A DNA stretch of 64,000 bases from the NCBI GenBank assembly GCA_963920765.1, contig OY987252.1:250501-314500 (forward strand). Direction: 5' to 3'. Source of the DNA: Ulota crispa. Taxonomy: Eukaryota > Streptophyta > Bryopsida > Orthotrichales > Orthotrichaceae. Positions 6,861 to 43,523 of this stretch are shown here, in pieces (within the stretch, counting starts at the first letter, position 1; every line of letters begins with the position of its first letter). The notes under the pieces are model-generated. The model was not told the DNA's origin and did no database searches. It saw nothing but the letters and a program-made list of their open reading frames with translations. The translations under genes were made by a program, and so were the position numbers.

Positions 6861-6864
6861 ATTG

Positions 6865-21662: not shown

Positions 21663-22849
21663 CCCTTATATATTCATCTATGTCTTCATCCACCGAGTAC
21701 CTGTAATACAATTAGAGGCTCTTGTCTCGACCCCTCCATGCCAGTCATTCGACCATCCTCTCTGTCTGTTACACTCTGTGCTGCTTGGTTTCTTAGTTCA
21801 GCTTGTTTTCTGCCAAAGCTCCCAATATCTCGATTGACCTGCCTGCCGAAGCTGACCCTTGTTACCAGAACTGCCTTGAATGTAGTACTTACGGTATTTG
21901 CAGACTGTTGTTGCTGACGAAGCTTGACTTGTAGGCCACAGACAAAAGAGGTCAAGACTCTTGGTCTGACTTTAATAATAACTCTATCATGTGGAGAGAC
22001 AGTGGCACTTCAACGTTCCTCATGTTCGGTGAGCTCGGCACCCTGATTTATGGGAATACATCTATTCGGCAGTGACCAACCTCAACCCCTGGATTTAGCA
22101 AGCAAGCATTATGATCCTTCCGTGACAGATCAGTAGAAGATTTTGATCTCAGTTCTCTAGTGGGGAAAATTCATCACTGTATTAAAAGATGATACTGTTT
22201 GGTGCACTCTTCTCTAATTTGGGGGAAACGACTTGCAGGGTGTCGTTGACAAGATTACGCTGGTAGTGGTGGATGTCAACCAGGCACCAGTGGAGAGATC
22301 TGTGTTCAGACTTGGTCTCAAGCAACTGTGAAAAGAAGTTGTTACTGTGAACGAGTCGAAGTAAGTATCTTTTTCTTTCCGAAATAGAACCTTCAAGAAT
22401 CAAGATCCCATCTCAAGCTTGTGGTAGCCTATCATTTGTTTCTCCTTCGCCCTATTATTTTCCAACTATGACCATTAGAGACGAAGGAAATTCAATTTTC
22501 GCTGTGTTCTATTGCAGATTGTTCGTGGGAGGTGGATGCTTACCTGAAGTTAACCTCTCCAGACCGTCAAGAAGGGGCATCTTTGGATACCAGCTGATGA
22601 CGAGGTATGGATCAGTGCTTCACTGTAACTTCTATCAAATCAATGCAGAGTAGTTACTAGGATATGTAGCTGTATGTGGAACGCCCTGTAGAAAGAGCCA
22701 CAAACAAGAATTGAGTGACAGTGAGCAAGATTACATGTTCAATATATAGTGGAGCATGATAAAAGGCTGGAAGAGGTGGAGTAGCCAATGGTTATATAAT
22801 ATTCATGGTTACATGTGTATGTAGTTTTGTATCAGGCACAGGCGGAACC

Positions 22850-24850: not shown

Positions 24851-24858
24851 ATGTGGAT
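24851..24858 (+). repeat. 8-bp target-site duplication, left copy
   Basis: ATGTGGAT, identical to 42571-42578 and directly abutting the left terminal inverted repeat. An 8-bp duplication is characteristic of hAT transposition. Confidence 0.92.
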
Positions 24859-24880
24859 CAAGGTTGTCATAATGGGCAAA
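24859..24880 (+). repeat. Left terminal inverted repeat of giant hAT
   Basis: A 22-nt terminus starting CAAGGTTGTCATAATGGGC. Subterminal GGGCAAA and GCCCG words follow to about 24910, as expected for transposase-binding subterminal motifs. Confidence 0.92.
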
Positions 24881-25084
24881 TGCCCGATTCGCCCGCCTGT
24901 TTGCCCGCCTTGTCTGATAGGGGTCTTCGCCTGCCTGATAGGGTCAAACGTAGTTGACTCTCAAAAATTGTAAAAAACCAATGATGTGGCTTACCATGGA
25001 TTTACCCCCTCGCCACGTTGGTGCCACTTGGTTGCTACAGCTGGTCTAGGGCGCATATAGTAATGTGCAGGGCGTATATAGAAA

Positions 25085-25297
25085 TGTGGCAGGGCGCATA
25101 CAAATAGGGCAAGGATGTCCTTGCTCAAGGCAAAGACATATTTGTTAATGGCAAAGATGTCTTCAAGCAGGATGAAGATGTGTCCGCTCGGCACAAAAAC
25201 CTCTCCGCCTTGGCAAAGACGTCTTTGCCCCGGACGACTACGTCCTCGCCCTTAGGCAAAAACCTGTCCGCCCACGGCGAGGATGTCTTTGTCTAGT
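25085..25297. repeat. ACGT-core array 1 (left subterminal)
   Basis: A degenerate array with unit close to GGCAAAGACGTCTTTGCC, an 18-bp palindrome, with clear matches at about 25210-25235. Copies are spaced 18-30 bp apart. GACGTC is a C-box type ACGT core of the kind plant bZIP proteins bind. The position about 230 bp from the element end also fits a transposase-binding subterminal repeat. Confidence 0.75.
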
Positions 25298-25574
25298 AGT
25301 TCATACATTTTATGATGAGACATTTTGATTTTTGCACATCACATACAATTACCTCAAAGGTAAATAAAAGTTTTTGTATACGAGTGAATTGGCCATTGTC
25401 TTTGTCAATTTCTATATAATACATCATGGAATGTATTGCCAAACATACATACTACATTCCGAAGATAGTTAGGGTGAGCTCTAGATGCAATAGTTCAGTA
25501 AACAATGAACACAAACTATAATATAGAAAAACATGAACAAAAAACTACGTATGAAAATAAAATGACAGCATAGA

Positions 25575-27139
25575 CCAATTGTGGAGTGCTTTTGTCAATC
25601 CATCTAGGACCTCAGACACAGATGCCCTATCCTTCACATCTTCCTTATGGAGGCTTTCAATTTTTAGCTGTAGGTTTGTGTATTGGTCCGATCTGCCTCT
25701 GAATAATTCAACATCATATCTTCATCCTATATCTTCTTGGCCACCTATCTCGCTGCAAACGCAACAGCTGCCATGGAATACAAGTGTTTTTTATTCTCAA
25801 CTTTGTAAGCATTGGCCGAGCCTGGTTCTCCGTATAAAAAGTACAGTTTGGGTGCAACAAAGGGACAATAGCATTTTGTCTTCTTTACTTCATTCAAGGT
25901 CATGAAACTGTACCTCAATGGCGCTTGTTCCACAACTCTACTAGAAAGGCCCCAATTATATAGTCCTATGTATATTATGTTGGCCTTCCATTCATCAAAG
26001 TAGAGGAACATGTTAGTCAGAGATATGTCATTGTGAATGTACTTTGCATCGTGACATGCCCTCACAACCATAAGCAATGATATTGCTAGGTCAATTCAAT
26101 TCATGCAGTAGGTTGCAACCCATCCAAGTTTTGATACTGTGAAAGTGTCATGTGCCATTGACCCAATTTGCTTGTTCCGTATCGCAAGACTCACTTTTGA
26201 ATCATACTTTTGCCAGAACAAATCAAGGGATCCACTATTCCACCAAAATGTATAGCTTGCCATTGTATTTGGGTGGAGGTACGCAAGTCTAATGACACTA
26301 GCGTGCTTCAATGGGTACCCTCCTACCTCCATCACGATCTCTCAATGCTTCTCCATCTCGTTCTTTGTCTTCAAAGACTTTTTGGCAAAAAGAATCCAAC
26401 TAGGAATACTAGGGAACTTTGTAATCATCACCTTCTTGATGTAGCCGTATCCACCTTCCTCATTCCCTTCTGGCATTCTAATGACTTTGGCAGAATTGGA
26501 TAGCCACTGGAATGTTCCACTGGCGCAATGAGCATGAACTTGTTCACTTTCTGTCCCAAACTGTTGAGCCTTCCTCCTGCGCACTTGGGAGAATGATTGC
26601 GCCCAGCCCTGCACCTCTCTTAGTTTTGCCACCAACTCTTTCTCTTTGTTGCTCAAGTTCAGAGCATCCACCTTCTTCTTGGTGAAATAAGTCCAATTGT
26701 GACAATATTTGTTGTCAATGCCTTGACTTGTTTATCTAGCCATTTTTGGTGCAACCAAAAAAACAGTGTAATAATTGAACTCCTCTGATTTGCCAAATCT
26801 CCTCTCCATTTCGTTGCTTAACTCATCACCTAGTTTTTGGAAACCCTCCTCGCCAAAAGCCATGAATTGCCTCCTCAACGTTGTCATGGGGCGGATTTTG
26901 TAGAACCTAATAGCTATTTCTCTACTCTTCACCAAAAACTCATGACCGGGCATATCAACATTAGCACTTGTCATCTGCCTCTTGCCCGTTGATGACAAAG
27001 GGCCCAACAAAGGACCCGACGAAAGACTCGACAAAGCCGCCTCCACGTTCATGTTTTTCAACGAACGGACTGCCTCCTCTATATTGTCTATATCTACAAA
27101 TGGGCGCTTCCCTAACAACCCACTCTCTTCTCTTGCCAT
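25575..27139 (-). pseudogene. Kinase-like cargo gene relic
   Basis: From the ATG at 27139 one minus-strand frame runs 1.4 kb to 25745, broken only by stops (26732, 26342, 26096, 25745) and without frameshift. A second frame then supplies KDRASVSEVLDGL near 25600. An N-terminal helical region of about 150 residues precedes a kinase domain: Gly-rich EEGGYGY, a lysine in ILFAKKSL, YIHNDISLTN at about 26038 (HRD replaced by HND, catalytic Asp and Asn kept), and LYNWG at about 25957 in place of DFG. VAPKL then stands for APE. The changed DFG aspartate suggests a pseudokinase ancestor or decay. Upstream, 27140-27340 resembles the leader of the zinc-cluster gene at 29360-31436. Function in the element is unknown. 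Confidence 0.72.
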
Positions 27140-27299
27140 ACTTCAGCACTCAATGCTCAACTTACAATTAAGATTAGCGTGAAGGAGATTGTGCTCCAAT
27201 TATGATTCTAGTGAATTAATTGCTAGAGTTTGGGTGCAAAAAAACACTTCACATATGCCTTGATCCAGCTCAATGAAGAGGTAGACTCGTGGGAGAATG

Positions 27300-27345
27300 C
27301 AAGGCACAGACAATGGGGCACAGATGCCCTTTTATATTTTACTTT
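27300..27345 (-). promoter_or_regulatory. Promoter-like module of kinase cargo gene
   Basis: TATAAA occurs on the minus strand at 27336-27331. Downstream on the same strand comes CTGTGCCCCATTGT then TGCCTTGC. The cargo gene starting at 31436 has the same order (TATAAATA, then TGTGCCTCATTGT, then TGCCTTGC), so two cargo genes share a promoter of common origin. An ACGT array lies just upstream. Confidence 0.55.
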
Positions 27346-27356
27346 TAGTAAAGGAC

Positions 27357-27690
27357 AAGGCGAAGACGTTAGGACAGGGTAGCGTAGTATTCACAGAAAA
27401 ATTTGCCTAGGCAACAACATCATCACGGCCCCCACGGTCTAGGACAGAGACGTCTTTGCTGAAAAATGGCCTGGGCAACGATGTCATTGCGGCCCCCAAG
27501 GTCCAGGGCAGAGACGTTATCGCGCCCCCTTGTACGAGGCGTAGACGTCACGGCCCCCTCCCCAAACCAGGGCGGAGACATTGTTGCGCCCCCTCGTATG
27601 GGGCGGAGACGTCATTGCAACGGCCGTTGCTGGGTGGCAATGTTACCATCCCCCCCACCTCCCATTATTGGGAGGCGACGTAATCGTGAG
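27357..27690. repeat. ACGT-core array 2
   Basis: A degenerate array of GGGC.GAGACGTC / GACGTTAT units, spaced about 25-50 bp and GC-richer than the flanks. It lies immediately upstream of the kinase-like cargo gene. Short open frames through it are compositional. Confidence 0.75.
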
Positions 27691-27737
27691 CCACGACTGT
27701 TTCTCTTTGAGACTCAATTATTTGATCACTTCCTGAA

Positions 27738-27812
27738 TATAATGTGGACTGCACTATTTCAAACTACCTAGGCCTATTCCAATACACACAAATTACAGTG
27801 GTTGCACTTTAT
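27738..27812. mobile_element. Fragment related to the MITE at 44468-44857
   Basis: AATGTGGACTGCACTATTTC, then CAATACACACAAATTACAGTGG, matches the left part of the 44468 element (GTGTGGACCGTATTATTTC then CAATACACGCAAATTC). No terminus is retained. Confidence 0.5.
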
Positions 27813-27999
27813 GTGAATAATTCTTGAACCTTTGTTAAAAGATGCAAGGAGACAAGAGGTATTTGGGAATGTAAATTATATTCCCGTCAAACCTCTGAAG
27901 AAATAGTTATATCGTCTCAAAGAAAAAATTGTTGAGTGCAGGCACGTCCAGGAACTCCAAAAACTTTTGCTGTGACAGTCTTTTGAATGCGAGATTTTA

Positions 28000-28680
28000 A
28001 CTTCTCTAAGGTAATATTATTTCCTTTCATATTGTTAGAAAGAAAAATCTTGTCCTTAGTGGAAAATAGACTTCTAAACAAAATTAAACATTTTCACGCT
28101 TTGTCACACATTTTCAGGCAAGGAACCAAAAAAAAATCTTTTTTTCCACATATAAATTTGAGATCCCTATACTTTTTACTTTGTATTTATTTAGGGTAAA
28201 AAACATAGTGTAAACCTTTCTATTCACCGTTTGGATTATCATTTTGAAACAAATATTGTTTACCAAAAAAACATGAAGTACCAGATTTTGAACCTTTGTT
28301 TGTTGCACCATTTTTTTTGCATATGCCACACTTACTTTCTATGTCTAAATTTTTATGGGTTATGTACCTAAGGGCAAAAATTCAACACAAAGTGAAATCA
28401 AAGTTTGCTCATCCACTGATCGCAAGGGAGAAAATGAAGCCTTTCCTCTACCTCAAACAGCCTAATCTTTCAATTCATGTGGACAAAGTTTCTGGAACCC
28501 TGTGAGCGTGTTACTTCATAAGCCTTAGCTGAGAGCATATGGTTAAAAGATGAAATGATAGTTTTTCTTTCCTCCCTACCTCATTGCCCTAGAATCAGCA
28601 ATACTAAAGTGTTTATTCTGTGAAATTGTCAAGGAATTTTAGGGGTTATGTACCTAGGTTTCATCTGTATAGAGGCTCAA
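28000..28680 (+). mobile_element. TTAA-target MITE relic (second subfamily)
   Basis: Diverged but collinear with the interior of the TTAA-target element: TTTTCAGGCAAGGAACC, then a TTTTCCACATATAAA block, then GGAGAAAATGAAGCC. The right end reads GGAATTTTAGGGG. It shares features with the host copy at 14362-15830, so at least two subfamilies exist. The copy is inserted inside the giant hAT. Confidence 0.65.
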
Positions 28681-29359
28681 GAGTGTTATTTCTTTAAGTC
28701 TTTTCAATTGCCGATTTAAAGTCCTATAAGTGTTATATGTCACAACTTCACAGGTGCGACTCAAATTTTGCTACCGTGGAGTAACATTTATAGAGAATCA
28801 ACTATACACATCCTTCTTTGTCCATCATGTAATTTGTTTTATTCATTCACTCCCTCTCTTCCGTGTACTGTTAGTTGTTAATTTCTATCCACGTTAAAAA
28901 TTGGGAAAATTAGCACTCTATAAAACCAACCATACAATATTGGAATGTATTACTTACATTGGGAAATAGTTCTATACTATAGAACAAGTGATACAAAAAT
29001 AAATAAATAAATGACGTGCATCATGCATGTCAAGATATCCACCAAAATATCCATGTCCTAATATATTGTAGTCATATAAAGCTATAAATGCAACCACAAG
29101 CCTATGCAACTCTGACTGCTACACTACTAGCCGCAATACGTCAGTCAAGCCTCTTTGAGATCCATTGGGCTATTTGCGGTGCCGCTTCCGCCAGCCTTGT
29201 TGTCGTGCGTTCCTCTTGGTGCGGGGGCAACAAGGTTGTCATCATCTGAACCTATAATCAGTCTCCAAGCAAATGATTGGTTCTTCTCAATGGCCCATCT
29301 TCTTCCAACACTGCCCACATCACTTGTAATTGCATGAGTTCATTGAGAACCCTAACCGT
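28681..29359. other. Spacer inside giant hAT
   Basis: No gene is supported. AT-rich, with one 60-codon frame at 29155-29337 that lacks any recognisable feature. Confidence 0.4.
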
Positions 29360-31436
29360 TTTCGGACTCTATTGTTCTAGCAAAAGCTCGTTGATTTGGT
29401 CATGAATCTTTCCCTCCACTCTAATTTTGATATTGTTTGCATTTCCGCTAGGTGAGGCAGGAATGGATCAAGATTCTGCAGGTTTAGATTACCATCGTCG
29501 TCCGTGACCCTAATCCTGTCTTTGTTCCACTTCCAATCTCTTGGATGTGAACCAAACCTAAATTCTTTCTCGGCTTCATTCTAGTGCCCATCAAAGCATT
29601 AGTAGAAGAAATTGTTGCGCCTGACATATTTTTCCATTTTGCTATTGATTAGATTGTGGCAAACCCTAAAAATCTCCACAGGATCCCACTCCCAACCAAA
29701 TTAGCGAGAAAGTTGGTTTTTTGTCAATCTGTGCAGGTCTAGTTTCCAACTCCAAACCAAGTCAACACCCCACATTCTGGGCTCATCAATGGCATTCTCG
29801 TGGTTGTATTCCCAATGTGGCGGCAAGTATGGTGTTAATCCAAATAACGAGTATAGCCGCTTGTGGAAAGGGCCTTTGCAATGTGCGCACTGCCAATGGG
29901 TAACCATCCACAAAATCAAGCAGATCGGGTGGTAGTAGCAACCGCAGGTGCCCAAGCGTATTCCACCTTTTGGTCCAAATGTTTTATAGCACATTGTACA
30001 TTTGGTTTTGTCAGACACAAAATCCGCTGGTTTTGGCCACACCAATGATTGATTGCCTCCAAGTTGTAGTGGGATTGAAAGTTGTATCTTAAAAGCGTTC
30101 ACCAATTCTTCATCCTTGAAAAGTTTATCTATGGGTACCCATGACATCAAGCCAAACACTCTTTCTTGGTTGTTGACGGAGGAATTGTGGTTCACCCTTG
30201 TTCTTTCAGCCTCCAACTGCTGAGTGCAGTCAACAGTGAGGATGTACGCCAATTTTTGTTGGTAGTATTGTTTGACAAGAACATTACATTGGTCCTAGAG
30301 ACCTCTATTTTAAGCTATCACGTCATTTAGACGTGATTCACTAACCATAGACACGTCTGCCACCACTGCTTTGTCAAATGACAAAGAGTTTACATGAGTG
30401 TGGCTGGTTCCAGCGGCACCATCATTCACAACTTGAACGCCGTCCATTGCGCTCAGCGACGCGGCTTGTAGCGCAAGTCGGAGATCCTCCATCTCTTGTG
30501 CCATCCGGTTTGCCTCAATGTTCTTCATGGTGATCACTTCCATCAATCTAGTGACCTCGTTGTGCAAGGAAGCCAATTCTCCATCTTTCATCCAAAGTTG
30601 GTCCCTCAAGACATCAAGTTTGCCCTTGACGACAATATCTATTGGAATATCAGAGGCCGGATTGTCCCCAACATCTACAAAACTGGGCAGATCCTCTCCA
30701 CCATCTCTTCCACCATCTGAAACTGGTTCCTTGTTATACGGCAATTCCAGGGCCTCCATGAGACCATCAATGATTTCACAAATGATGTTGTTTGTTTCTT
30801 GGTCAGCCCTTCTCCGCTTCCTTTGTCCAAGGGTTTTCTAGGTTACTTCTTGTTTGGCAGTCGAGAGCCATCGGAGTCCAAATTAGGCGCTGATTCGGTC
30901 GAGTGGATAATACAGGGACCGTGAACTTGTGTCCTCATTTTTCCCATGCTTTGTCCTGGGAATCGCTGTCCTAGTCTAATGAAACCATTTTCCGGTGCAG
31001 GCACTATGACTTTCTTATCTAGTAAGCCTTTTAGGCTGGACCAGTCAAATCTCTTGCCCAAAACAAGCTCCGTGTGCACACCTCTTGCAATGAAAAGACC
31101 TACTTTGTTGCACTCGAGGTTGGGTTTGTTGTACAATGTCTGGTACACTTCAATGCATTGTTCTTTAAACACGTTGTTCTTGTAAAACGTCAAGTTGCAC
31201 CAATGATTATGTCAATTATGATTGTGCTAGTGCTCTGAGAAACATTTGTCTATGTAGCACCACTCGATGAATTTGTTGCTATCTTCTTGAGTCCATGGTT
31301 TAGGATGTTCAAGCCATCCTTTGAATGCAAGTTTGGCGGGATTGCGGAGGACGTGCAGTTGTTTCTTGTGGCGCTCTCTAGGTCGTTCTTGGATCTTGAG
31401 TTTCTCCACATTGCTGGGTCTTGCGGTTGGAGCCAT
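29360..31436 (-). pseudogene. Zinc-cluster/coiled-coil cargo gene relic
   Basis: From the ATG at 31436 one minus-strand frame runs to 30843 (one stop region near 31227-31193). After a shift, a second frame runs from about 30830 to about 29360 with few stops (30310, 29701). Reading from the N-terminus: a basic start (RPRERHKKQ); a conserved-looking region with KRFDWSSLKGLL; an acidic then coiled-coil segment (DQLWMKDGELASLHNEV); a zinc-binding cluster CTMC...CGCYYHPIC...CAHC (about 30000-29880) resembling a RING or PHD finger but lacking one ligand pair; then a Trp-rich C-terminus (HPRDWKWNKDRIRV). I do not recognise the family. The zinc cluster suggests ubiquitin-related or protein/DNA-binding activity, which is inference only. 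Confidence 0.65.
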
Positions 31437-31687
31437 GGTACTACACTATTTCAAGCAATATTTTATTTCAAATAGGCTTGACTTACTAAAAGCCTTCTAT
31501 TACAAGTAGTTTTTTGATACAAATAAGCTTCTATTACAAATCCTAAAATAGTCTAAAAGGTGAAGTGTAGAAAAGATTTGCAAAAAGTTGTCTTGCGGAT
31601 GAATATGCACCTTGCGCGACCAAACTAGCTCAATTAAGAAGTAATCAAAGGGAGGAGCAAGGCAGTTACAATGAGGCACACACGTTC

Positions 31688-31695
31688 TATTTATA
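31688..31695 (-). promoter_or_regulatory. TATA box of zinc-cluster cargo gene
   Basis: TATAAATA on the minus strand, about 250 nt upstream of the ATG at 31436, in the same sequence context as the kinase cargo gene promoter. A minor ACGT-type cluster (GGGCAGAGATGTTATTGCC) lies just upstream at 31705-31760. Confidence 0.5.
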
Positions 31696-31789
31696 TGTTT
31701 TTTCCCCGAGACAGGGCAGAGATGTTATTGCCTCTGCCCGTCATGGGGCGGAATTACCTTCAACAATTTTTGGTTCAAAATTTTTTCCC

Positions 31790-32495
31790 TATTTTTTTTT
31801 ATAATTACAAATATAAATTGACATTGACTTTGAGTCTATTGATGTTAAGATTTTTCATACATGTAGAAAATATTACCCTCTCCAAAGATGTCAAAAAACA
31901 TTTCTTGTTGTTAGTAGAACAAACCGTTAAATGCAAGTTAATCAATTTTACACATTGTCAAGCAAGGTACCAAAAAACTTCTTCTTTTCCACATAAATCT
32001 TAAAGATCTTCTTATTTTTTACATTTTATTTTTTGTACTATAAGATGTGGTGCAAACCTTTTTATTGATCGTGAGGATTCTCATTCTAAAGTATATTTAG
32101 TTCACAATAAAATAAGACGTGAAACGATAATTTTTATCTTCCAATCCTTGTGTACTTGTTTTTTATATGGCACACCCTTTATGTTAGTGGTTGCACTTTA
32201 TGTTAATAATTGACCTTGAATGGTGCAAAAATTTAATACCAAGTGCAGTCAAAGTACGTTGATTCACTCAACTTCGAGAAGAAAATGAACCATATTCTTG
32301 ACTTCAAACATTATGATCTTCAAGTTTGTGCAATGGATTGCAAGAAAAAAATTATGGTAAGTTCATATAGAAGCCTCTTTCAAGATCTTACGGTTAAAAA
32401 TTTGTAATTTTACTTGAAACTAGATTGCTTGTGACTTTTTGATAGTGGCAATTTGGAGTGTTTCTTGAGGAAAAAATGCCTTGGTCCTTTAGGGG
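31790..32495 (+). mobile_element. TTAA-target MITE relic, 5'-truncated
   Basis: Closely similar to 14900-15596 and 42800-43519. The right terminus CCTTTAGGGG at 32486-32495 is intact and followed by CTAG. CTAG is part of the 59-bp tandem unit that follows, so the element inserted into that array. No left terminus was found. Confidence 0.75.
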
Positions 32496-32975
32496 CTAGT
32501 GTAAGGGTTCCTAACTTCAATCCTTGGGATCCTATTTTTTTTTTTTGTATTTACTAGTGTAAGGGTTACTGTCTTCAACTATGGGAATCATTTTTGTTTG
32601 TTTTGTATTTACTAGTGCAAGGGATTACTACCTTCAACCAATAAGATCCTTTTTTTTTTTTTTTTTGCTAGTATGAATAATGACTACCGTCAACCATTAT
32701 GATCCTTTTTGTTTGTTTTGTATTTACTAATGCTGGATTACTACCTTCAACCATTAAGATACATTTAGTTTGTTTTGTATTTACTAGTGCAAGGGATTAC
32801 TACCTTCAACTATTAGGATCCCTTTTATTTGTTTTGTATTTACTAGTGTAAGGGGTTACCACCTTCAACTATGGGGATAATTTTTCATTGTTTTTTATTT
32901 ACTAGTGCAAGCAATTGCTACCTTCAACCATTAAGGTCCTATTTGTTTGATTTTTATTTACTAGTGTAAGGGGTT
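32496..32975 (+). repeat. 58-59-bp tandem array, about eight copies
   Basis: CTAGTG or a close variant recurs at 32496, 32553, 32612, 32668, 32726, 32784, 32843, 32902 and 32961. Units read roughly TTGTATTTACTAGTGCAAGG then ATTACTACCTTCAACCA. The array precedes the duplicated module at 33090-33500. Confidence 0.92.
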
Positions 32976-33089
32976 AGGCTTCCTAACTCTCCCACAAGGC
33001 TTCCACTAGGCTCCCTAACTCTCCTTCTCCTCATTAAATTAGAGAGATTTTAAAAACAATTAAAAAGTCTCAAAAGGAAATATGTAACA

Positions 33090-33500
33090 ACTAAAAGTAG
33101 AAATTATATTACATACTTAGTAGACAACAAAAACATGAAAGTCAATGTGGTGGAAGATGTAATGGGATGGCAATGAAAGACAATTCTTAAAAAAAACATA
33201 TTGCGGGATACAAGGTAAGGAGAGTGCTTAAGGTAGGGATAAAGTAGATAGGGAAAGGGAGCACAACCTCTAAAGCCACACCTTAATAACGGAGTTCGTT
33301 CCCACAAATTGGGGAAGACAAGGTTGTTGCCATTAATAGGGAATGATTAGATCTTGTTTCACCTAAGAGTAATTAGAAGCTGCAATGAATGGCTCCTCCA
33401 ACACTTGAGAGAGAGGAGTGGCCTTGGCAAGGCCATTCCCAAGGTTTAGAAGTTTCTATACACATTTTCAGTGGAGCACCAGGATCTTCAGTACCCGGCC
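33090..33500 (+). repeat. Duplicated promoter-side module, copy 1
   Basis: Collinear with 35280-35640: both share GAAAGACAATT, then GGGAGCACAACCT/GGGAGTACGACCT, then GGTTGTTGCCATTAATAGGG-type sequence, then AGCTGCA.TGAATGGCTCC and GCAAGGC.ATTCCCAA. Both copies are preceded by a tandem array of about 60-bp units and followed by an ACGT array, a TATA box and a reading frame. Confidence 0.8.
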
Positions 33501-33504
33501 TCCC

Positions 33505-33815
33505 TTGGACAACAATGTCTTCGCTGAGGGCGAGGATGTTGTCACTCAAGGCGAAGACGTTATTGCCCTCGGTGACAACGTCTTTGCCTTGGGCAAGGAC
33601 GTAATTGCTTAGGCAATAACGTCTTTGCCTAGGGCAAAGACGTCTTTGTAGGGCAATAACGTCTTTGCCCAAGGAGGGGACGTTGTTGCTTTGGGCGAAG
33701 ACAACTTCACTTCGGGCAAGGACTTCTTTGCTTGGGTGACAACGTCCCTACCTTGGGCGAAGATGTTATTGCCCTAGGCAAAGACGTCTCCACCTTGGGC
33801 AAAGATGACCCCACC
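33505..33815. repeat. ACGT-core array 3
   Basis: The clearest array. GGGCAAAGACGTCTTTG and variants (AACGTC, GACGTT) recur every 20-25 bp, with several near-palindromic copies at 33600-33680. It lies 20-300 bp upstream of a TATA box. Confidence 0.85.
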
Positions 33816-33830
33816 TCTGCCCTTCCCAAC

Positions 33831-33839
33831 TATATATAG
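33831..33839 (+). promoter_or_regulatory. TATA box of small cargo ORF
   Basis: TATATATAG lies 60 nt upstream of the ATG at 33899 and about 30 nt downstream of CTTGGGCAAAGATGACCCC. The same arrangement (CTTGGGCAAAGACGTCCCC, then TATATAAATA) precedes the transposase relic. Confidence 0.65.
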
Positions 33840-33898
33840 CAAGTGAACTTCTTCCTTTCTTCATTCCACACCCTAAGCCTCATATACTAGCTTGTTCA

Positions 33899-34300
33899 AT
33901 GCCTTGGTTAGAGTTTGGTGGGTGGTGGAACTTCAAGCAGTTTCTTTTGTGCCGTAAACATTGTTTGATTAGAATGAAGGGCCGCATTACATCTTTGAAG
34001 AAGGATACTAAGGTTCTACACATTGAGTTCCGTGACAAAGTGAACACCGATCTCAAGTCTCTGGAATAGCTTGAGCAGTATGAGTATGGGCGATTATTTG
34101 ATCTATTCATGGAGTATCACGCCGTGAAAGGACCTTTGATTCAAGCAATGTTTAACACATGTCTTAACCTCAACGTTCTTGTTTGCACCAAACACCTCCC
34201 AAGGATGTTAGAGCTCTTACATTATGAGCAAAACGTGAGCATCAACAACAAAGCAGAGGTGGAGATTAGTAAGGCTATTGAAACATACAAGCAAGTGTAG
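33899..34300 (+). pseudogene. Small basic cargo ORF relic, unknown family
   Basis: A 133-codon frame from ATG 33899 to TAG 34298-34300, with one internal stop (TAG 34067-34069). It starts MPWLEFGGWWNF, then has a Lys/Arg-rich helical section (MKGRITSLKKDTK). The end is helical (LPRMLELLHYEQNV). No domain is recognised. It sits directly behind a TATA box and ACGT array on the transposase strand, so it was probably an expressed accessory gene of the giant hAT. A 61-bp tandem array follows. Confidence 0.55.
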
Positions 34301-34574
34301 GAATGCTTTTCTTAAGACGCATTCAAGACTTTGTGCTACATGACATAGGATAGAAAGTGTTCTAATCATGACACTGCTTTTTGCCATTTGTAATAGTTTT
34401 GTAAAGTGTTGGCAGTAAACATAATTTGAAGAGCCCAACACCAAAAAATTTCTCCTATTGTTGATGTTTGATGCTCATGGTGTGAGAAATGCGGACACAT
34501 CAAACATTTACAAGTAACTCCATTATCCCTTTGTTTTTGATCAACATGCAATGTGTTTGTTGTTGGGTAAAAAT

Positions 34575-35090
34575 CTACAGCGTTTCTTGTGTTTATTCAT
34601 GTAAGTTGTTACAACTTACAACTAATGGGCTACCCTTTTCATTTTTTTTTTGTTTATGGATGCAAGTTGTTACAACTTACAACTAATGGGCTACCCTTTT
34701 CATTTGTTTTTTGTTCATTCATGTAAGGTGTTACAACTTACAACTAATGGGCTACCCTTTTGATTTGTTTTTTGTTTATGGATGCAAGTTGTTACAACTT
34801 ACAACTAATGGGCTACCTTTTTGATTTGTTTTTTGTTTATTTATATAAGGTGTTACAGCTTACAACTAATGGGCTACGCTTTTTATTTATTTTTTGTTTT
34901 TTCATGTAAGGTTTTACAACTTTCAACTAATGGGCTACTTGTTTGATTTGTGATTTGGTTTTTTATGTAAGTCGTTACAACTTACAACTACTGGGCCACC
35001 CTTTTGATTTGTTTTTTGTTAATTTATGTAAGGTGTTACATCTTTAACTAATGGACTACCCTTTTGATTTGTTTTTTGTTTGTTCATATT
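34575..35090 (+). repeat. 61-bp tandem array, about eight copies
   Basis: ACTAATGGGCTAC recurs at 34621, 34682, 34743, 34804, 34865 and 34926, then as ACTACTGGGCCAC at 34987 and ACTAATGGACTAC at 35047: an almost exact 61-bp period. Units contain GTTGTTACAACTTACAACTA. It precedes the second promoter-side module, mirroring the 59-bp array. Confidence 0.95.
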
Positions 35091-35279
35091 GTTTTCATTT
35101 TGTTTTCATGTATTTCTCATACAATTATATGATAATTGAAAAGGAATCACAATGGTTGTACGTCATTGTACTTTAGAGTCTTGAGCAATAAGAAAAATTT
35201 TAATAGAAACAACAATAGTTAAGGAGGTACAAGGCAAGGAGGACATGTTAGAAGTAGACAAGCAACGAATTAAATATAT

Positions 35280-35640
35280 TGTGTTGGAAGGTGTAATGGG
35301 GTAGGTATGAAAGACAATTAATTACATACACATGTGAAGGAGGTCAAATGTAAGGGGGAGTGGTTGAGGTAGAGGTTAAGGAGGTAGCGGAAGGGAGTAC
35401 GACCTTCAAAGTCAAACCTTGGATATAGTGTTCCTTCATACATGTTGGCAATGACATGGTCGTTGTCATTAATGGGGAATATCAAGATCTTGTCAGATCT
35501 AATAATGGTAGGTAGCTGCAGTGAATGGCTCCCTCCAATACTTGCAAGGGAAGATTGGCATAGGCAAGGCAATTCCCAATCTTTGGAAGGTTTGGGAGTT
35601 GGGGGGCCTTGTAGTGGTGGTCTCCGCACCCTCTTGCTAT
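35280..35640 (+). repeat. Duplicated promoter-side module, copy 2
   Basis: Diverged second copy of 33090-33500, placed between the 61-bp array and ACGT array 4. It leads to the transposase relic. Confidence 0.8.
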
Positions 35641-35850
35641 AGACATCATTGCCAAGGCGAGGACGTCATTGCTCCAACGTTGACGCTTTTGCCCTAGGCG
35701 AGGATGTCATTGCCAATAAGTGAGGACGTCTTTGCCATGGACAATGATATCTAGTGGTGGGGGCAATGATATCTTTGCCAAAGGCAAGGACATCATTGTC
35801 AACCTCATGTGTGCACCCTTAAAGTCTAAACTTGGGCAAAGACGTCCCCA
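35640..35850. repeat. ACGT-core array 4
   Basis: Units such as GGCGAGGACGTCATTGC and GAGGACGTCTTTGCC every 20-30 bp, ending at CTTGGGCAAAGACGTCCCC next to the TATA box of the transposase relic. Confidence 0.8.
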
Positions 35851-35865
35851 CCCCTCCGTTCACAA

Positions 35866-35875
35866 TATATAAATA
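35866..35875 (+). promoter_or_regulatory. TATA box of transposase relic
   Basis: TATATAAATA, about 20 nt after the last ACGT unit, in the same arrangement as at 33831. It lies about 210 nt before the first recognisable transposase codons. Confidence 0.65.
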
Positions 35876-36084
35876 CAAGAGGGAGGACTAGCATTCCCCA
35901 CGTCTATCACCTTGGCTTCATTTCTTGGACCTCTTAATTTGAGCTCTAAGCAAGCCTAGTTGGGTGACAGGCGGCCATATGTTGTTGCTAAGGTGATGTA
36001 AAAATTAGTTTAAGCGGTACATTGGCGCTACTCATTATCACTATCACCCAAATCTTGATATTGTAGAAGCCCACCTGTTTTGTC

Positions 36085-38474
36085 AACAACAAAGTAGGCG
36101 GTAGACATTTGCATTCATATGTGAATGAAATGGGAAGTCAACGGAGGCAGACCGTTGCATGGGAGCCATGGTACAACTTTTTGGCTGATAGAAAGAGTGG
36201 TACATGTCTTTTCTGCCCAGCCTCTTTTTCCTACAAGAAGGATTGCGCATTTCTCCACCACGGGTTTGGTGAGTGCACACGAAGGACCTTTTGTCCTGAA
36301 TTACCTGATATGGTGAAGGCTAGTTTTCAAAATTGCGGAGGCGTTGTGCCGCAACGAATGACATTGGAAGAGATGGGTCTAGGGAATTCAACTTGACATG
36401 GTCCCCCTAGAGCATTGTCTTTTGGTATATCAAGCCAATCCGTTGCACAAACTGAAGCAATGGCAGGGATGATTAGCAAGAATCCAGAGTGAGAAGCTAA
36501 CCCTTTTTCAAGGAATGAGGCACCACATTGGTCCAATGATGCAGGTGCATTGAACTTGACAAGATTTGGATCAATGCGGCAATGTCAAATGGAAGATGCT
36601 TTTTCCATTCAGAAGAGGAAGGAGTTGGACTAGAAGTGGGCATCATTCTTCTATATGGCAAATGTGCCATTCAAGGTGGCAAGGCATCCTGCCTTCATTT
36701 AGGCGGTGGGGGCAACATCCGTGGCAAAATTTGAATACATTCCTCCTGGTTATCACTAGTTGAGGACTAATTCATTGCCCCAAAGAGGACGCAAATTGAG
36801 AAGGAGATCAAAGCTAAAGTTGGTTTTTTGGTTAAAAACTACAGGGTTTCAATATGCATTGATGATTGGGACAATGTCAATCAGAGGCCTCTCATGAATG
36901 TAATGATGTCTTGCCCCGCGGGTGATATATTCATGGGGAGCATTGACACTAGCAAGGAAACAAAATCCATGCTCTACATCGTAGACCAAATGAAAGTATT
37001 CATTGAGAAGGTGGATGCAAAGTACGTGACGCAAGTTTGTACCGATATTGCGCCAAACATGCTTGGAGCATTGAATGACATCATCAATACATACCCCCAC
37101 ATTTTCAAGCAAAGATGCATGACAATTGCATTGGATCTCATGTTAGAAGATTGGGCCAAGGTCCAAGAATTCAAAGATTTGATTAAATGATCCAAACAAT
37201 TGTGCCAGGACGTAATGAACCATCATGCGTCAATGTCAATTTTTTGCAAATTGAGTCCTAACTTGCAACTTGTAGTATCTAGCAAAACCAGATTTGCTTG
37301 TAATTTCCTCATGTTGCAGCGTATGGTTGAATTTAGGGTAGTGCTGTTGCGGTTGAAAGACCATCCACATGTTCTAAATTACTTTGCTTCCCTACGGAAC
37401 ATGCAAAACGGTGAGCAGGCGGCTACCACTTTGCAAAACGTGGTTCTAACCATTGAGGATGTGGCTTTCTGGCAACAATGTCAAAATTACGTCCACATGA
37501 CCAAAGATGTCTTGAAGGCGTTGCGCATATTTGATGGCCACAAACCAGCAATGGGACGGGCGTGGCTTGTAATGCACAATCTTCAAAAGCATGTGTATTC
37601 TTTGAGCAAGCAACCTTTTAGCCTACAAGATTACATAGCAATTGTCTTAGAAGAGTCCTTCATAGCAAGGTGGAACTTCATTTTCTCTAACGTTTACTAC
37701 GCTGGGGCCATATTGAATCCTATTCTCAAGGACCATGCGGCGCTAAAGGCAGATAATTGTGCCTTTTAGGCATTGTATCGAGTCATCCGCTGCATGGAAG
37801 ATGTATTGGGTGTAGATTATGACATTGTTATGACAAAACTAACACAGTATGAAGAGGGCACTGGACCATATAGCCCGGATTTGACACCCAACTTGCGCGA
37901 GATGAAGTTAGCTGCCCACCATTGGTGGCACTGGGTCGCTGACCAAACACTCTCTAAAATTGCTATGTGTATCCTAGCGCTCATTTGTTCGGCAAGCTCT
38001 AGCAAATGGAATTGGAGTATGTATTCTTTTGTGCACAACAAGAGTCAAAATCAGCTAGCCCTAGAGAAGGCTGAGTCACTAGTTTATATTTATACCAACA
38101 ACCGCATCATATGCAAAAGAGTAGTGGCCGATCCGGTTTGTTGGTATGATGCAAATGTCTTGTTGAAGGACTACAACGTGGATGCCTTAAGCCCTATTCC
38201 AATTGGTGAACCCAATCGTGAATTTGATGTAATGCAAGCACAAGAGGAGGAAAATGATGACATGGAAGCGAACCGAGCCCCATCGGAATATCTGCCAAAT
38301 CCATAACTTTGGAGACGTGGTGCCAATCACCTTGAGGAGACAAGAAACTATTACGGAGAGGATGATGATGATCTAGAAGACCCCACTGATAGAGCTTGGA
38401 GTCCTTGGCCAGAAGTTCCTACTCAAATTCCGTTGCCTCTCCTTCCTAGAAAGAAAGAGGCCACTATGGAATAA
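36085..38474 (+). pseudogene. hAT transposase relic (BED + DUF659 + hATC)
   Basis: Recognisable parts in order: a BED-like zinc finger (WEPWYNFLADRKSGTCLFC, HHGFG, TRRTFCPELPDMVKASF; about 36160-36345); the DUF659 N-terminal region (KWASFFYMANVPFKVARHP, PPGYH; about 36630-36760, with stops); DUF659 proper (KNYRVSICIDDWDNVNQRP, then YVTQVCTDIAPNMLGA; 36828-37190); a helical middle (37200-37769); and the hATC dimerisation region (SASSSKWNWSMYSFVHNKSQ, about 38000-38060) with an acidic tail to 38474. A frameshift lies near 36770-36800. From 36828 onward one frame holds for 1.6 kb with stops at 37188, 37767 and 38304. It would have cut and joined the ends at 24859 and 42570. Now inactive. Confidence 0.85.
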
Positions 38475-38499
38475 CCTTTGTTTTCATCTTCAAAAAAAA

Positions 38500-39690
38500 T
38501 GTTCCGGATGCGGTCAACCTTGATGATTGGGAAATTCCCGTGTCTAATGGCAATGAGGACGGCAATCCTTTTTCAAAAACTGATGCTGGAAATGGAGATG
38601 CCAACAACAATGGGGGCGGTGCAAACTTGGGGAACACAGCAACTCCAAACTTTGATGGATTTGAGTATGAGCGTGAGGGAAACGAGAGGTTCAAAGTCAT
38701 GGGTGCAACAATCCGTAGCAACACAATTGTTCAAGGACAGAACAACAATGTAGCTGTTCCAAACACAAGGATGGTTAAACCGGTCCAAAGGCTTGCAGCG
38801 GTTGTGAATGGATCAAGGCATTTTGACCCTAACTATCAAGACCCAAATGACGCTTTGCGTTCATGGACAACAAAGAATCCGCATCAAATACAGTGCATAG
38901 TGATGTTCTTGACCCAACCACACCCACGCCATGTATCCAGAATTTGACTTCTTTGGCAACTTTGCTTGCCAATGTGAGACGTTTCGGTGAAGGGTTAGAT
39001 TTAGTGAGAAATGTTTGGGTCTCAAATCCAGATACCAATGGTAGTGGTGATGGTAGACTCCCGGCGGCCCCTACACGTCTAGGTGTATATTATCAAGGCC
39101 GTGGAAGAAATGGAGGGACCAAAGGCCATGGAAGGAGTGGAGGCTATGGAAGAAAAGGAGGAATTGGACGGACAAAAGGCCGTGGAAGGAATGAAGGCAG
39201 TGGAGGAATTAGAGGCCGTGGCAAAACAAACAACAACAATCCATCATCTTCTAGATGTGGAAGACGTACGTCTATCGCAATAGGGGTGAGAGATCCAAAT
39301 GTTGTAGTGCTACTGTTTTGGAACACTTTTGTCCCGGGATGCAGTCTTTCAACACCCGCATTTGTTGTTCCCCATGGTACTTGTCTTACCGTCGGCCCTT
39401 GTGTAAATTCCAACAATGAAGATCCCATGGCACATCACCGGAAGAGACTAAGAGTCATGGACAATAAAAACATTTTAGAGGTGCAAAATGAAAACTCAGA
39501 TGTGGAGGTCTCCAGGAGCTTAAGCAATTCCCTTCCTTAAAATGAAAGTGCCAACAATGAAGGCGGCAATGATGAAGACATCAACGACAAAGCACCATCT
39601 GATGATGACGTTGTCATAAGACACATTATTTCAACTATCCCATCTAATAACACAATGCGTAGGTCAAATTGTTTCAATACTTGAGGATCA
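38500..39690 (+). pseudogene. Asn/Gly- and RG-rich ORF relic, unknown
   Basis: Two consecutive frames: about 38520-38947 (acidic, Asn/Gly-rich, NVPDAVNLDDWEIP) and, after a shift, 38863-39690. The latter contains GRGRNGGTKGHGR-type Arg-Gly repeats (about 39090-39230), then a Cys/Pro-containing segment and an acidic tail with one stop at 39538. The RG-rich stretch resembles nucleic-acid-binding tails. It may be the 3' end of the transposase transcript or a separate cargo gene; no domain is recognised and no separate TATA/array module precedes it, which favours the former. Confidence 0.5.
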
Positions 39691-39914
39691 CCAGTAGTAG
39701 CTTTACAAGTCTTTAGGAATTGAAGAGATTCCAAGCAATTCCATGAAAGATGTAAGGCAAAATGGTGGGAGTATCTTAGATAACCGATGGTATTTTCAAG
39801 TTCTATGATGGTAAAATGTATTCCAAAAAGCCTGTTTTTAATACATAGATCTGGTTATACCAGACATTGAAGCACATATGTTGCAGAGTTTTTTAGTTGC
39901 GTTACTATGAGAAA

Positions 39915-40060
39915 GCCCACGGTAACGTCCACGCCTTGACCCAAAGACGTCCGCACCCAAGCCAAAGACGTCCGTGTGCAGATTGCAGACATCCTCGCTT
40001 GAGTCAAAGACGTTCGCGGCTAGACCGCAAACGTCCACGCGCATGCAGGTACGTTGTCGC
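39915..40060. repeat. ACGT-core array 5
   Basis: CCAAAGACGTCCG, CAAAGACGTTCG and CAAACGTCCACG recur every 20-30 bp, a GC-richer variant of the same array type, downstream of the transposase region. Confidence 0.75.
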
Positions 40061-40214
40061 TGTCCTGATGGAGATTCCTCCATCATGTAGATACTCGTTA
40101 TTTATTTATGCTTGTGTTGATTTCAGTAAATCAACAGTTGAGGCAAAAGTGGTGGTCGTGGTGAGGACCACGGTTTGGTGACAGCATAGTGGCTATAGAT
40201 TCCAGTGAGCTGCG

Positions 40215-40400
40215 CCATCTTGTCACATGCACAGCTCAGGAGGATAGGTAGCAGGTTGGCTGGGCCAATTTCCTGCCTCACTAGCTGCCAAGCCGTGAGC
40301 CACCATCATCGCTCGACGAGTTCGATGGGATTCGAACCAGGATCGGCGGGCGGCTAGAGACGACCGCTTCTCCAGCCAACCAAGTCCACGACTTGGCGAC
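40215..40400 (-). mobile_element. tRNA-derived SINE-like unit
   Basis: On the minus strand GGTTCGAATCCC (40338-40327) is a perfect pol III B box. About 35 nt upstream, TTGGCTGGAGAAGCGGTC resembles an A box and D-arm. A non-tRNA body follows (GATGGTGGCTCACGGC). There is no complete cloverleaf, so a SINE rather than a tRNA gene is likely. It lies inside the giant hAT. Confidence 0.5.
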
Positions 40401-40779
40401 TGAAGACAAGCGTTTGACTCTATTATATGCTTGCAAGGGCACGTGGCCATTTTACGATGTTGTTTATTTTGCAATTTAATCATTTTCATATGTTTATTTA
40501 GATGTTTTGGAAGGCTCATATATATTTTGCCTTTGTTTGAATAAAAATACTAAGGATTCAGAAGTTAATGGGAAAGGTGTGAAAAGAAAAAGGGTATGAC
40601 ATCTATGGTGGGGTTAGGATAGGGAGGAGCATGGGCTGATGTGCTCCACCTCCCTATTTTAGATAGGATCGAAATTATGGAAGAAAGATCCCTTAGTTAT
40701 TGAAAGTTAGTGTATGAGTATTGGTGAGAAGAAGGGAAAAAGATCCCAAAACTTTGATGTAAGAGATTTTTTTGTATAT

Positions 40780-41590
40780 ACATGATTTTGAATTGAAATT
40801 TGAGGAGGTTGTTCATTGTGTGATTACCTTTCCAAACTGAGTTTGCAAGTTTGATTGGAGTTGTGATGCAAAAGTTATGAATGTTTGAATTTTGAAGTCA
40901 AAAAGCCAAACTATAAAGAAAGGTTGAGACTTCAACAAGCTATAACTTATGGTTTGTATATCATTTTGCAACAAGATTTGAAGGGAGTGTTTATCTTAGT
41001 CTTGGCTTTCTAGAAAGTTCTTAAACTTGAGATTTGAAACTTGAACGAGAAAGTTATGGAGGTGTGAAGGTTTGGAGGTGGCTGCCTTTTTGTTAGGAGA
41101 AAGCCAAGACTTTGAAGAGCTACAACTTTTGAACAATATGAAATTTTCTTCTCAGATTTTTAGAAGTGATAGTTTGTTGTCATAGCATTTCAAATTGTCT
41201 TTAATTATTTCATTTGGAGTTTTATTGAAGAAGTTATAGTGGGTAAAAATTGGAGATTTGGGTGTTCTCTAAAAAATTGAGACCCACACTTTGAATGACT
41301 AGAGCTTTCGAATAGAGTTTTATTTTGAAGTGAAAACTTTATGGATTGTAGCCAGTGATATCATCTTTCTAAATTGATATCACATTTCTATGGGTGATAT
41401 ATAGAACAAAAGTTATAGAGGTTTATAGAGGCAGTATTTAATTTGTAAGGAGGAAGAAGAGCCTCTACTTTGAACCTGCATAACTTTTGGACTGTATCTT
41501 AAATTGAGTTGATATTTGAAGGAATGTTAAAAGATTAGAAGAGCTTTTCAAATTGCTATTATACTTAGCATTTGAATCTTTGAACCATCT
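40780..41590 (+). repeat. Tandem repeat of about 178 bp, four copies
   Basis: AAAGTTATGAATG / AAAGTTATGGAGG / GAAGTTATAGTGG / AAAGTTATAGAGG start units at about 40871, 41048, 41229 and 41405. In each, about 60 bp later, ACTTTGAA..(GAGCTA)CAACTTTTG-like sequence follows. Spacings are 176-181 bp, with strong divergence between copies. Confidence 0.75.
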
Positions 41591-41665
41591 GTGGCACTAG
41601 ATAGAAGGTTGCTGCTTTTCTAGGACTTATTATTTGTGATTTTCTCCATTGTTTTTATTAAAACA

Positions 41666-41800
41666 TGAAGACTTGAGGACTTGAAGACTTGAAGATTTGA
41701 AGACTTGAAGACTTAAAGACTTAAAGACTTAAAGACTTAAAGACTTAAAGACTTAAAGACTTGAAGATTTAAAAATCTGAAGATCTGAAGATTTCAAGAG
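41666..41800 (+). repeat. 8-bp tandem repeat (GACTTRAA)
   Basis: About fifteen copies of GACTTGAA/GACTTAAA, with the central six (41710-41760) identical GACTTAAA. A short related run (GACTGAAGACTGAAG) recurs at about 42177-42193. Confidence 0.92.
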
Positions 41801-42299
41801 GAATGTTTTGGATTTATTTTTTATGTATGTGTAGGATGTGGCTTTGTTATTCCTAGCCGGTTTTGGAAGCTCATTTGTCAATTCATTTTCATTTTGTTTT
41901 GTAAACCCTATTGCGGACAATTTGGATTAAACCAAACTTAATCTCATTTATTGTTGTGGTGACAAAATGGGATTAATCACCCACATGATTGAGACTTGCT
42001 TTGTTCTTTCAATCTGGAGTTTTGGTCAGCAGATCATGAATTTGATTTTAGAATCTTGTCATACGGACGGCAGCTCGTGTCTGCTGTCCCGATCTATCCA
42101 TCCCGTATCTAGTGAACTCTTATGCCTATCTTGACCCTTATATCCTTAGAGCCAGCTACAGGATAGGCCAACGGAAGACTGAAGACTGAAGATTTGAAGA
42201 GAAAATCAAGATTGACGATGATTTTAGTCGGCAACGCACGATTGCAGCAAAACACTCTGCATATTCTTAAGGCATGCTCCTCTCAACTCGACACCGCCC

Positions 42300-42420
42300 T
42301 GCCCTGCGACGTTTGCGCCTTTGCTTGAATGTTCGCGCCCTATCCCGAGACGTCCTTGCCCCAAAGCTAATATCCATGCCTTGTTAGAGGCGTCCACCTA
42401 GGACGTGCGTCCTTGCTGGA
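42300..42420. repeat. ACGT-core array 6 (right subterminal)
   Basis: GCGACGTTTGCGCC, GAGACGTCCTTGCC, GAGGCGTCCACC and GGACGTGCGTCC units, 150-270 bp from the right end. This mirrors array 1 at the left end. Confidence 0.7.
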
Positions 42421-42548
42421 TGACATGTCACGTATTGACGTGTCATTTTGCGCCAACCATTTATCCTACAGAAAATTACTATGTCTCTAATAGACAATCG
42501 CTGGGTTTGTCCATTTGCCCTATCCAATTTGCCTGCCCATTGACCAAC

Positions 42549-42570
42549 TTTGCCCGTTATGACAACCTTG
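42549..42570 (-). repeat. Right terminal inverted repeat of giant hAT
   Basis: The reverse complement starts CAAGGTTGTCATAACGGGC, matching the left end except for one base. Directly followed by ATGTGGAT. Confidence 0.92.
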
Positions 42571-42578
42571 ATGTGGAT
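42571..42578 (+). repeat. 8-bp target-site duplication, right copy
   Basis: ATGTGGAT, identical to 24851-24858. Confidence 0.92.
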
Positions 42579-42595
42579 AGGGTGTCCCATACATA

Positions 42596-43523
42596 TTAAC
42601 CCTTAAAGGACCAATTGTCCCTATTTGGGACATTAGGATTTTGGGTATGTACCTAAATATTAAAAAAAAATCTTTTTTTGTTGAAAATTTCATACTAGAT
42701 TGCCCCTATTAAGAGTTTCATGGAGATTTTTTTTTTCATTTTTTTGGATTCATGGTTTGGAAGTTAGTACCACTCAAAGTTTAAAATGGGGAGTCCGAGT
42801 AGCTCCAAAATTTTGCTTGAAGTGTCTTTTGACATTGAGATTTTTCACACATGTAAAAAATATTACCTTTTTTGAAGGCGTCAAAAAACAATTCTTGTCT
42901 TTAGTGAAAAAAAACCGTTAATCCCAAGTCAAACATTTTTACATATTGTCGAGCACTGCACCAAAAAACTTCTTCTTTTTTACATAAAACTTAGAGATCT
43001 TCATATATTTTACATTTTATTTTTTCTATTATAAGATGTGGTGCAAACCTTCTTATGAACTGCTTGGATTCTCATTCTAAAGCATGTTTAGTTCACAATA
43101 AAACAAAACATGAAATGACAATTTTTGGACCTCCAATCCTTGCACATTTGTTTTGAATATGCTACACCCTTTATCTACTTTAAAATGTGGTATATAAGGA
43201 ACTAACATCATGCCTCACACAATGGTAAAGGATTTAGACCTTGTCTAGTGCAAAATTTTAATACCAAGTGCATTCAAAGTGTGTTGATTCACTCAAGGCA
43301 AGGAAGAAATGAACCATATTCTTGACTTCATATATTATAATCTTCAAGTTTGTGTGATGGATTGCAGTCAAAAAATATGGTAAGTTCATATAGAAGTCCT
43401 TTCAAGATCATACGGTTGAAAACCCATAATTGTACTTCAAACTAAGATTTGATGGCCACTTTAAGATAGTGGAAGTTATGGAATATTTCTTGAGGAAAAA
43501 TGCCTTGGTCCTTTAGAGGTTAA
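42596..43523 (+). mobile_element. TTAA-target MITE, copy B
   Basis: A 920-bp element (42600-43519) with ends CCCTTAAAGGACCAA and, reverse complemented, CCTCTAAAGGACCAA, flanked on both sides by TTAA (42596-42599, 43520-43523). Collinear with 14752-15596, but it retains a middle section (about 43125-43250) that copy A has lost. No coding capacity. It lies 25 bp outside the giant hAT. Confidence 0.85.

Follow-up and report, generated by a model that had tools for sequence, protein, structure and literature searches.

What kind of element lies between two hAT-type ends 17.7 kb apart in the genome of the moss Ulota crispa, and do the additional genes between those ends belong to it? The locus lies in a window of 64,000 nucleotides (GenBank assembly GCA_963920765.1, contig OY987252.1, positions 250,501 to 314,500; C11:250501-314500 in our contig naming), and positions given without a contig name are window positions. 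The evidence below indicates that the interval 24859–42570 is very probably a decayed autonomous hAT transposon belonging to a giant multi-gene lineage; the window copy itself is dead. A previous interpretation of the letters alone (hereafter the sequence-only reading) had proposed one giant hAT-type element spanning this interval, and the terminal repeats, the target duplication and the transposase relic inside uphold that proposal. Genome searches covered the 274.8-Mb assembly (157 contigs), and the genome-wide match counts are lower bounds. Plant-type CCCTAAA words and the layout of the genome also agree with a plant source, perhaps a moss.

The terminal inverted repeats (TIRs) are 22 nt long, lie at 24859–24880 on the plus strand and 42549–42570 on the minus strand, and agree at 21 of 22 bases with a single mismatch. 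Each is directly abutted by the sequence ATGTGGAT, at 24851–24858 on the left and 42571–42578 on the right, forming an 8-bp target-site duplication (TSD). Both features had been reported in the sequence-only reading, and the positions were exact. The TIR-to-TIR span is 17,712 bp, of which 2,233 bp are a later solo long terminal repeat (LTR); the element without this insertion measures about 15.5 kb. At up to three mismatches the TIR had two matches in the window and none in 100 shuffles, and a chance pairing of TIRs and TSD was rejected on this result. The TIRs, the 8-bp repeats and the interior genes together thus support a real, bounded unit of 17,712 bp, and because of its TIRs and TSD we consider that the element moved as a unit.

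The interior gene set comprises kinase-like, RING-like, small open reading frame (ORF) and DUF659 transposase genes, all of which carry stops. The DUF659/hAT transposase pseudogene occupies 36067–38303 on the plus strand, with a TGA and a TAG within 36771–38303. Pfam identified DUF659 at 36771–37187 (E = 1.6e-28) and a weak Dimer_Tnp_hAT match in 37770–38303 (E = 0.0014, below the Pfam cut-off). A Pfam scan of 36067–36393, a segment assigned to the gene by position only, gave no domain and hence no BED. From the BED/DUF659/hATC relic described earlier, DUF659 is therefore retained, the dimerisation region is retained as a weak match, and BED is not.

The kinase-like pseudogene (25748–27142, minus strand) is a single frame with the stops TAA, TGA and TGA, and its Pfam kinase match is weak (E = 0.026). 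Four public homologs of 524–542 aa share 42–55% identity, and lysine 246, HND (361–363) and DWG (387–389) are invariant across them. The window copy is likely dead as a kinase, to judge from its residues, because DWG is NWG and APE is APK there. One of the four homologs is labelled Bacilli in its source; we infer that all four are plant DNA in metagenomes. We also considered whether the kinase and RING genes came from viruses, and the viral contigs searched for relatives of the kinase P0001 yielded none. The closest solved structures were weak VRK matches (E = 0.016). The RING-like pseudogene (29704–31445, minus strand) consists of several ORF pieces with a weak RING match (E = 0.0098), and no public homologs were found for either RING query among 34 and 264 candidates, respectively. 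The small ORF (33899–34297, plus strand) has 133 codons and one TAG. Its only other genome match is C11:544486-544824, about 3 kb from a kinase, RING and transposase cluster, and this single match fits a view of the small ORF as rare cargo.

Relatives of the other three genes are numerous. Searches with the window proteins found at least 132 RING matches (using the piece 29704–30294), 91 kinase matches and 87 transposase matches in the genome, the best of them outside the window being 46%, 35% and 46% identical, respectively. After extra fragments were dropped, 113 of 132 RING, 86 of 91 kinase and 84 of 87 transposase rows were used for clustering. A RING match lay within 20 kb of 65 of the 86 kinase matches, compared with 3.3 under random placement, and 50 of these 65 pairs were in divergent order. 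Likewise, 66 of the 84 transposase matches had a kinase match within 20 kb, compared with 3.2 at random. The three kinds of match are not independent of one another, because their co-occurrence within 20 kb is far above random. When matches less than 15 kb apart were joined, a rule that may merge neighbouring elements, 48 of the 128 resulting clusters held kinase, RING and transposase together, and a further 14 held kinase and RING, 8 kinase and transposase, and 5 RING and transposase. Random placement gave an expectation of 0.23 triple clusters and circular shifts one of 0.27, with a maximum of 3 in 300 runs each (the length of C10 in these simulations, 18 Mb, was a guess). The trio thus occurs at dozens of places, which suggests that the extra genes are a regular part of such elements.

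Identity to the window copy was correlated between kinase and transposase (Spearman 0.51, p = 6e-5, 55 pairs), in comparisons that drew on 73, 69 and 39 rows, with RING rows picked near kinase matches and identities taken from stretches of unequal length. At 10 loci the transposase shared 42% identity or more with that of the window, and the adjacent kinase there was 30–42% identical; at the other 45 loci the kinase was 21–33% identical. Among the arrangements found, transposase forward, kinase reverse and RING forward is frequent; that of the window (kinase reverse, RING reverse, transposase forward) and others also occur.

This recurrence bears on the possibility that the window element is a macrotransposon, or composite, in which host DNA between two adjacent hAT elements was once mobilized by their ends, as in maize Ac. 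Such Ac cases, of 10.3 and 28 kb between hAT ends and with 8-bp duplications, are described (PMC9910405), and size alone is therefore not new in plants. The window does contain an inner TIR-like site at 29231 whose first 12 bases are identical, a partial site found in a scan at up to four mismatches, and apart from it no inner TIR-like site was found in the element at that threshold. The Ac cases involve nearby Ac ends and local host DNA, whereas here a gene set recurs across the genome with related transposases and is not local host DNA. We regard a single composite movement as highly improbable.

Further loci were read for ends of their own. The second element (C11:4383527-4409429, 25.9 kb), chosen as the locus around the best-scoring kinase relative (C11:4396601), holds a transposase, a kinase and two RING genes and was read outside C11:4387201-4393999. 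Its left TIR starts at C11:4383527, beyond the transposase fragments, and its right TIR ends at C11:4409429. The sequence GTGCCGGC before the left TIR and GTGCCAGC after the right TIR match at 7 of 8 positions as a TSD; random 8-mers pass the left-end test at a rate of 1.85%. A third set, on C1, and two on C6 were chosen for a TIR within 8 kb of a cluster, among 100 listed of 880 TIR matches. The C1 set has a TIR starting at 17088121 and a reversed TIR ending at 17102282, 14.2 kb apart; the two agree at 13 of 16 bases, and a kinase and a transposase lie between them. Across the five sets examined, one was clean, one nearly clean, one had TIRs on both sides but no clean duplication, and two were one-ended. 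The strongest candidate for a sibling of the window element lies at C11:523676-544824, where transposase, RING, kinase and small ORF again occur together with an LTR element adjoining; two 5-kb pieces read next to this set contained no TIR at up to five mismatches.

The transposase-side ends of the C1 set and the second C11 element are homologous (blastn, 237 columns, 68%, E = 4.6e-20), and this homology does not extend past the first base of either TIR in a comparison that included 1.7 and 5.5 kb of flank. The two sets also share 1,394 columns at 67% further inside. Sequence shared between sets on different contigs that ends at the TIR has the appearance of a transposon boundary. This observation is pertinent to the idea that kinase, RING and a domesticated transposase form a host gene cluster spread by segmental duplication, the window copy of which was later caught between TIRs. 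Such a cluster would agree with matches on all 11 contigs C1–C11, dense on C11 and C6, and with the 14 clusters of kinase and RING that lack a visible transposase. Segmental duplication is at odds with the end of homology at the TIR in two dispersed sets, with the 7/8 TSD of the second set and with the stops present in the majority of the listed matches to kinase and transposase, and we consider a host cluster very unlikely. As to the distribution itself, C11 (6.3 Mb) holds 17 of the 86 kinase and 25 of the 113 RING matches, and C6 holds 18 and 26, many of them beyond 18.7 Mb, as if these regions sheltered elements.

The ends and the genes of the window element are additionally connected by a short sequence motif. 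The half-site GACGTCTTTGCC, scored at 10 or more of 12 positions, occurred 42 times in the element, twice in the rest of the window and 10 times in 274,729 bp of other loci, the motif having been derived from the window's own array at 33578–33805. Six of these half-sites form a left-end array (25108–25293), and 8, 14 and 9, respectively, form arrays upstream of the kinase gene (27359–27619), the small ORF (33550–33809) and the transposase gene (35642–35846). The right end has four, three of them in an array before the solo LTR (39940–40014) and one at 42349 in the right subterminal region (42294–42548), and a single half-site lies at 38946. No half-site at this threshold lies upstream of the RING gene, which has at best a weak version. 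A degenerate form of the motif, written after viewing the window and the second element, had 23 sites in the window element and none elsewhere in the window, compared with 12 in 121,048 bp of other loci. In the second element, the sequence read had 14 sites (one at the left end, six in the kinase–RING interval, three upstream of the second RING gene, three near the right end and one at 4407753), and the flanks read had none. In the C1 set, which lies outside the derivation of the motif, 4.9 kb were read; they contained two distinct matches, both internal to the right end at distances of 224 and 529 bp from it, and the sequence beyond that end contained none. The palindrome GGCAAAGACGTCTTTGCC was found at 13 genome places at up to two mismatches, four of them within the window element, and for this reason does not find siblings.

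The motif arrays, together with the gene clusters, also bear on whether the locus is a nest, that is, a small hAT later invaded by mobile elements and gene fragments, so that the outer ends never carried the genes with them. Repeats are present inside: the solo LTR lies at 40061–42293 (plus strand), and two dispersed-repeat copies of one family, at 27946–28642 and 31834–32498, which may have been either inserted or carried, lie within the element, with further copies beyond it at 14384–15823, 42597–43523 and 62082–62789. The TIR type is also common, with 335 genome matches at up to three mismatches versus 30 in the control, and a wider TIR-family pattern gave 880 versus 18. In an uncontrolled count of 28 TIR loci, each read with 1.5 kb per side, five had a partner TIR at a distance of 93–370 bp and 8-bp repeats that differed by at most one base, six had a partner without such a repeat, and 17 had no partner within reach. 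The prospect raised in the sequence-only reading, that the ends pair over short spans, is thus realized in the wider TIR family and was not found for the window's own ends. Short MITE-like (miniature inverted-repeat) relatives occur in other hAT families too. A nest would explain the inner repeats and the short elements; it does not accommodate the three genes clustering at 48 loci, the two other sets with TIR-like ends, or the motif array shared by the ends and the sequences upstream of three genes. We judge it very improbable. The nest, the macrotransposon and the host cluster were all rejected on the evidence given for each.

Several results weigh against a giant hAT lineage with a shared gene set. 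Single-gene clusters made up 53 of the 128 (26 RING, 14 transposase and 13 kinase). The sequence-only reading had named cargo genes that occur independently of the ends as a refuting case, and these 53 clusters count towards it. Transposase and RING identities were uncorrelated (0.01, 28 pairs), those of kinase and RING were weakly correlated (0.36, p = 0.026, 38 pairs), and gene order differs among loci. At C11:6139000-6154000, 15 kb that were read contained two RING genes but neither a match to the transposase or kinase ORFs of the window nor a TIR-like pair at up to four mismatches. No DNA copies of the left 300 bp of the window element or of its right end (42294–42570, 277 bp) were found elsewhere in the genome; this search of the two ends had been proposed with the sequence-only reading, and it returned one place for each. 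In a genome search with the whole element only the LTR part scored (39 of 1125 candidates were scored). The two TIRs of the second element agree at only 10 of 16 bases. The C1 set has no RING match, and ACTTG, displaced by three bases, is all that its flanks CATACTTG and ACTTGCGG have in common, so that the TSD test failed. The right ends of the two C6 clusters were found in neither case (0 of 2) at up to two mismatches. The TIR type also terminates short elements, and both motifs were written from loci in which they were then counted.

With these points taken into account, we still favor a decayed autonomous hAT transposon for the window, and we think it probable that it represents a giant autonomous plant hAT lineage of about 14–26 kb, with a kit of transposase, kinase and RING, one motif family at ends and promoters, and a signalling and ubiquitin module controlled together with transposition. 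The earlier suggestion that the kinase and RING genes are incidental cargo does not agree with the trio at 48 loci and the two more sets with TIR-like ends on both sides.

Excision and insertion by a hAT transposase with an 8-bp duplication are established. By analogy with hAT biology, the transposase would have bound the TIRs and the motif-rich ends, and the whole 15.5-kb unit would have been cut out and inserted with an 8-bp duplication; the solo LTR would have arrived later. With less certainty, one element protein, either the transposase or the RING protein, may through the upstream arrays have coupled the expression of these genes to the element ends, and the kinase and RING proteins may have benefited the element through effects on the stability of the transposase or on host silencing.

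Known hAT elements are mostly a few kb long with one transposase gene. The window element resembles the superfamily in its 8-bp duplication, short TIRs, DUF659 domain, weak hAT dimerisation match and subterminal motif repeats (six half-sites at the left end and four at the right end), and differs in the size of about 14–26 kb and the recurrent kinase and RING partners seen here. Maverick/Polinton elements have a 6-bp duplication, a DNA polymerase B and an integrase; the window element has an 8-bp duplication, and a Pfam scan of 17 of the element's ORF segments gave no match to either protein. VANDAL elements are of the MULE type and encode the anti-silencing protein VANC. They likewise have arrays of short motifs in their non-coding parts, but are of a different type, and a protein binding the window arrays is only putative. 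Starships move by a tyrosine recombinase, for which the same 17 segments also gave no Pfam match. These fungal elements are giant DNA elements with several genes (PMC11623301), and the window element differs from them in its hAT transposase and 8-bp duplication.

We know of no kinase–RING–transposase set in ToxhAT. This 14-kb fungal element is large, by name hAT-type and carries another gene, and it is described for one host-acting gene (PMC12506042). Pack-hAT elements also have genes between hAT ends with 8-bp duplications, and Pack-TYPE elements are described as non-autonomous with captured coding DNA (PMC8903248). The window element, by comparison, contains a transposase relic of its own, and kinase and RING genes are found close to related transposases at 48 loci. 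Among the open-licence PMC papers listed in our searches, titles and abstract beginnings showed no giant multi-gene plant hAT and no such lineage with kinase and RING genes, and the window element is apparently an undescribed giant multi-gene variant of hAT.

Other features of the window were recorded in passing. The solo LTR is 83–89% identical to the 39 scored places elsewhere, many of which form pairs spaced about 8.4 kb, the arrangement expected for the LTRs of a single element. The target duplication of this LTR element is 4 bp with a central CG (ACGT, CCGG, ACGG, GCGT, GCGG or CCGT), and the flanks of the window copy, TCGC and CCGC, fit it with one change. In the set L032–L061, with one end of the pair L053/L054 unreadable and L040 and L061 read alone, identical 4-bp flanks were seen in five of six solo copies (the sixth having ACGT/ATGT) and in all 10 readable paired copies. 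A CpG-centered choice of target would be unusual. Outside the element, 5249–9977 consists of nearly 5 kb of short tandem repeats (TTCAAT and TTTATTCATCC types) with very strong strand asymmetry and a GC skew to -0.76, and a 452-codon open frame at 22763–24118, ending about 0.7 kb left of the insertion, has a nucleoside-hydrolase-like match (E = 2.9e-7, below the Pfam cut-off).

Multi-gene giant transposons are known from fungi, and hAT elements are generally viewed as small and single-gene. If our interpretation is true, dispersed hAT elements that share kinase and RING genes would constitute a cut-and-paste family with its own evolved regulatory kit. The kinase, the RING protein and the candidate binding site GGCAAAGACGTCTTTGCC would then provide concrete handles on host silencing and element activity.

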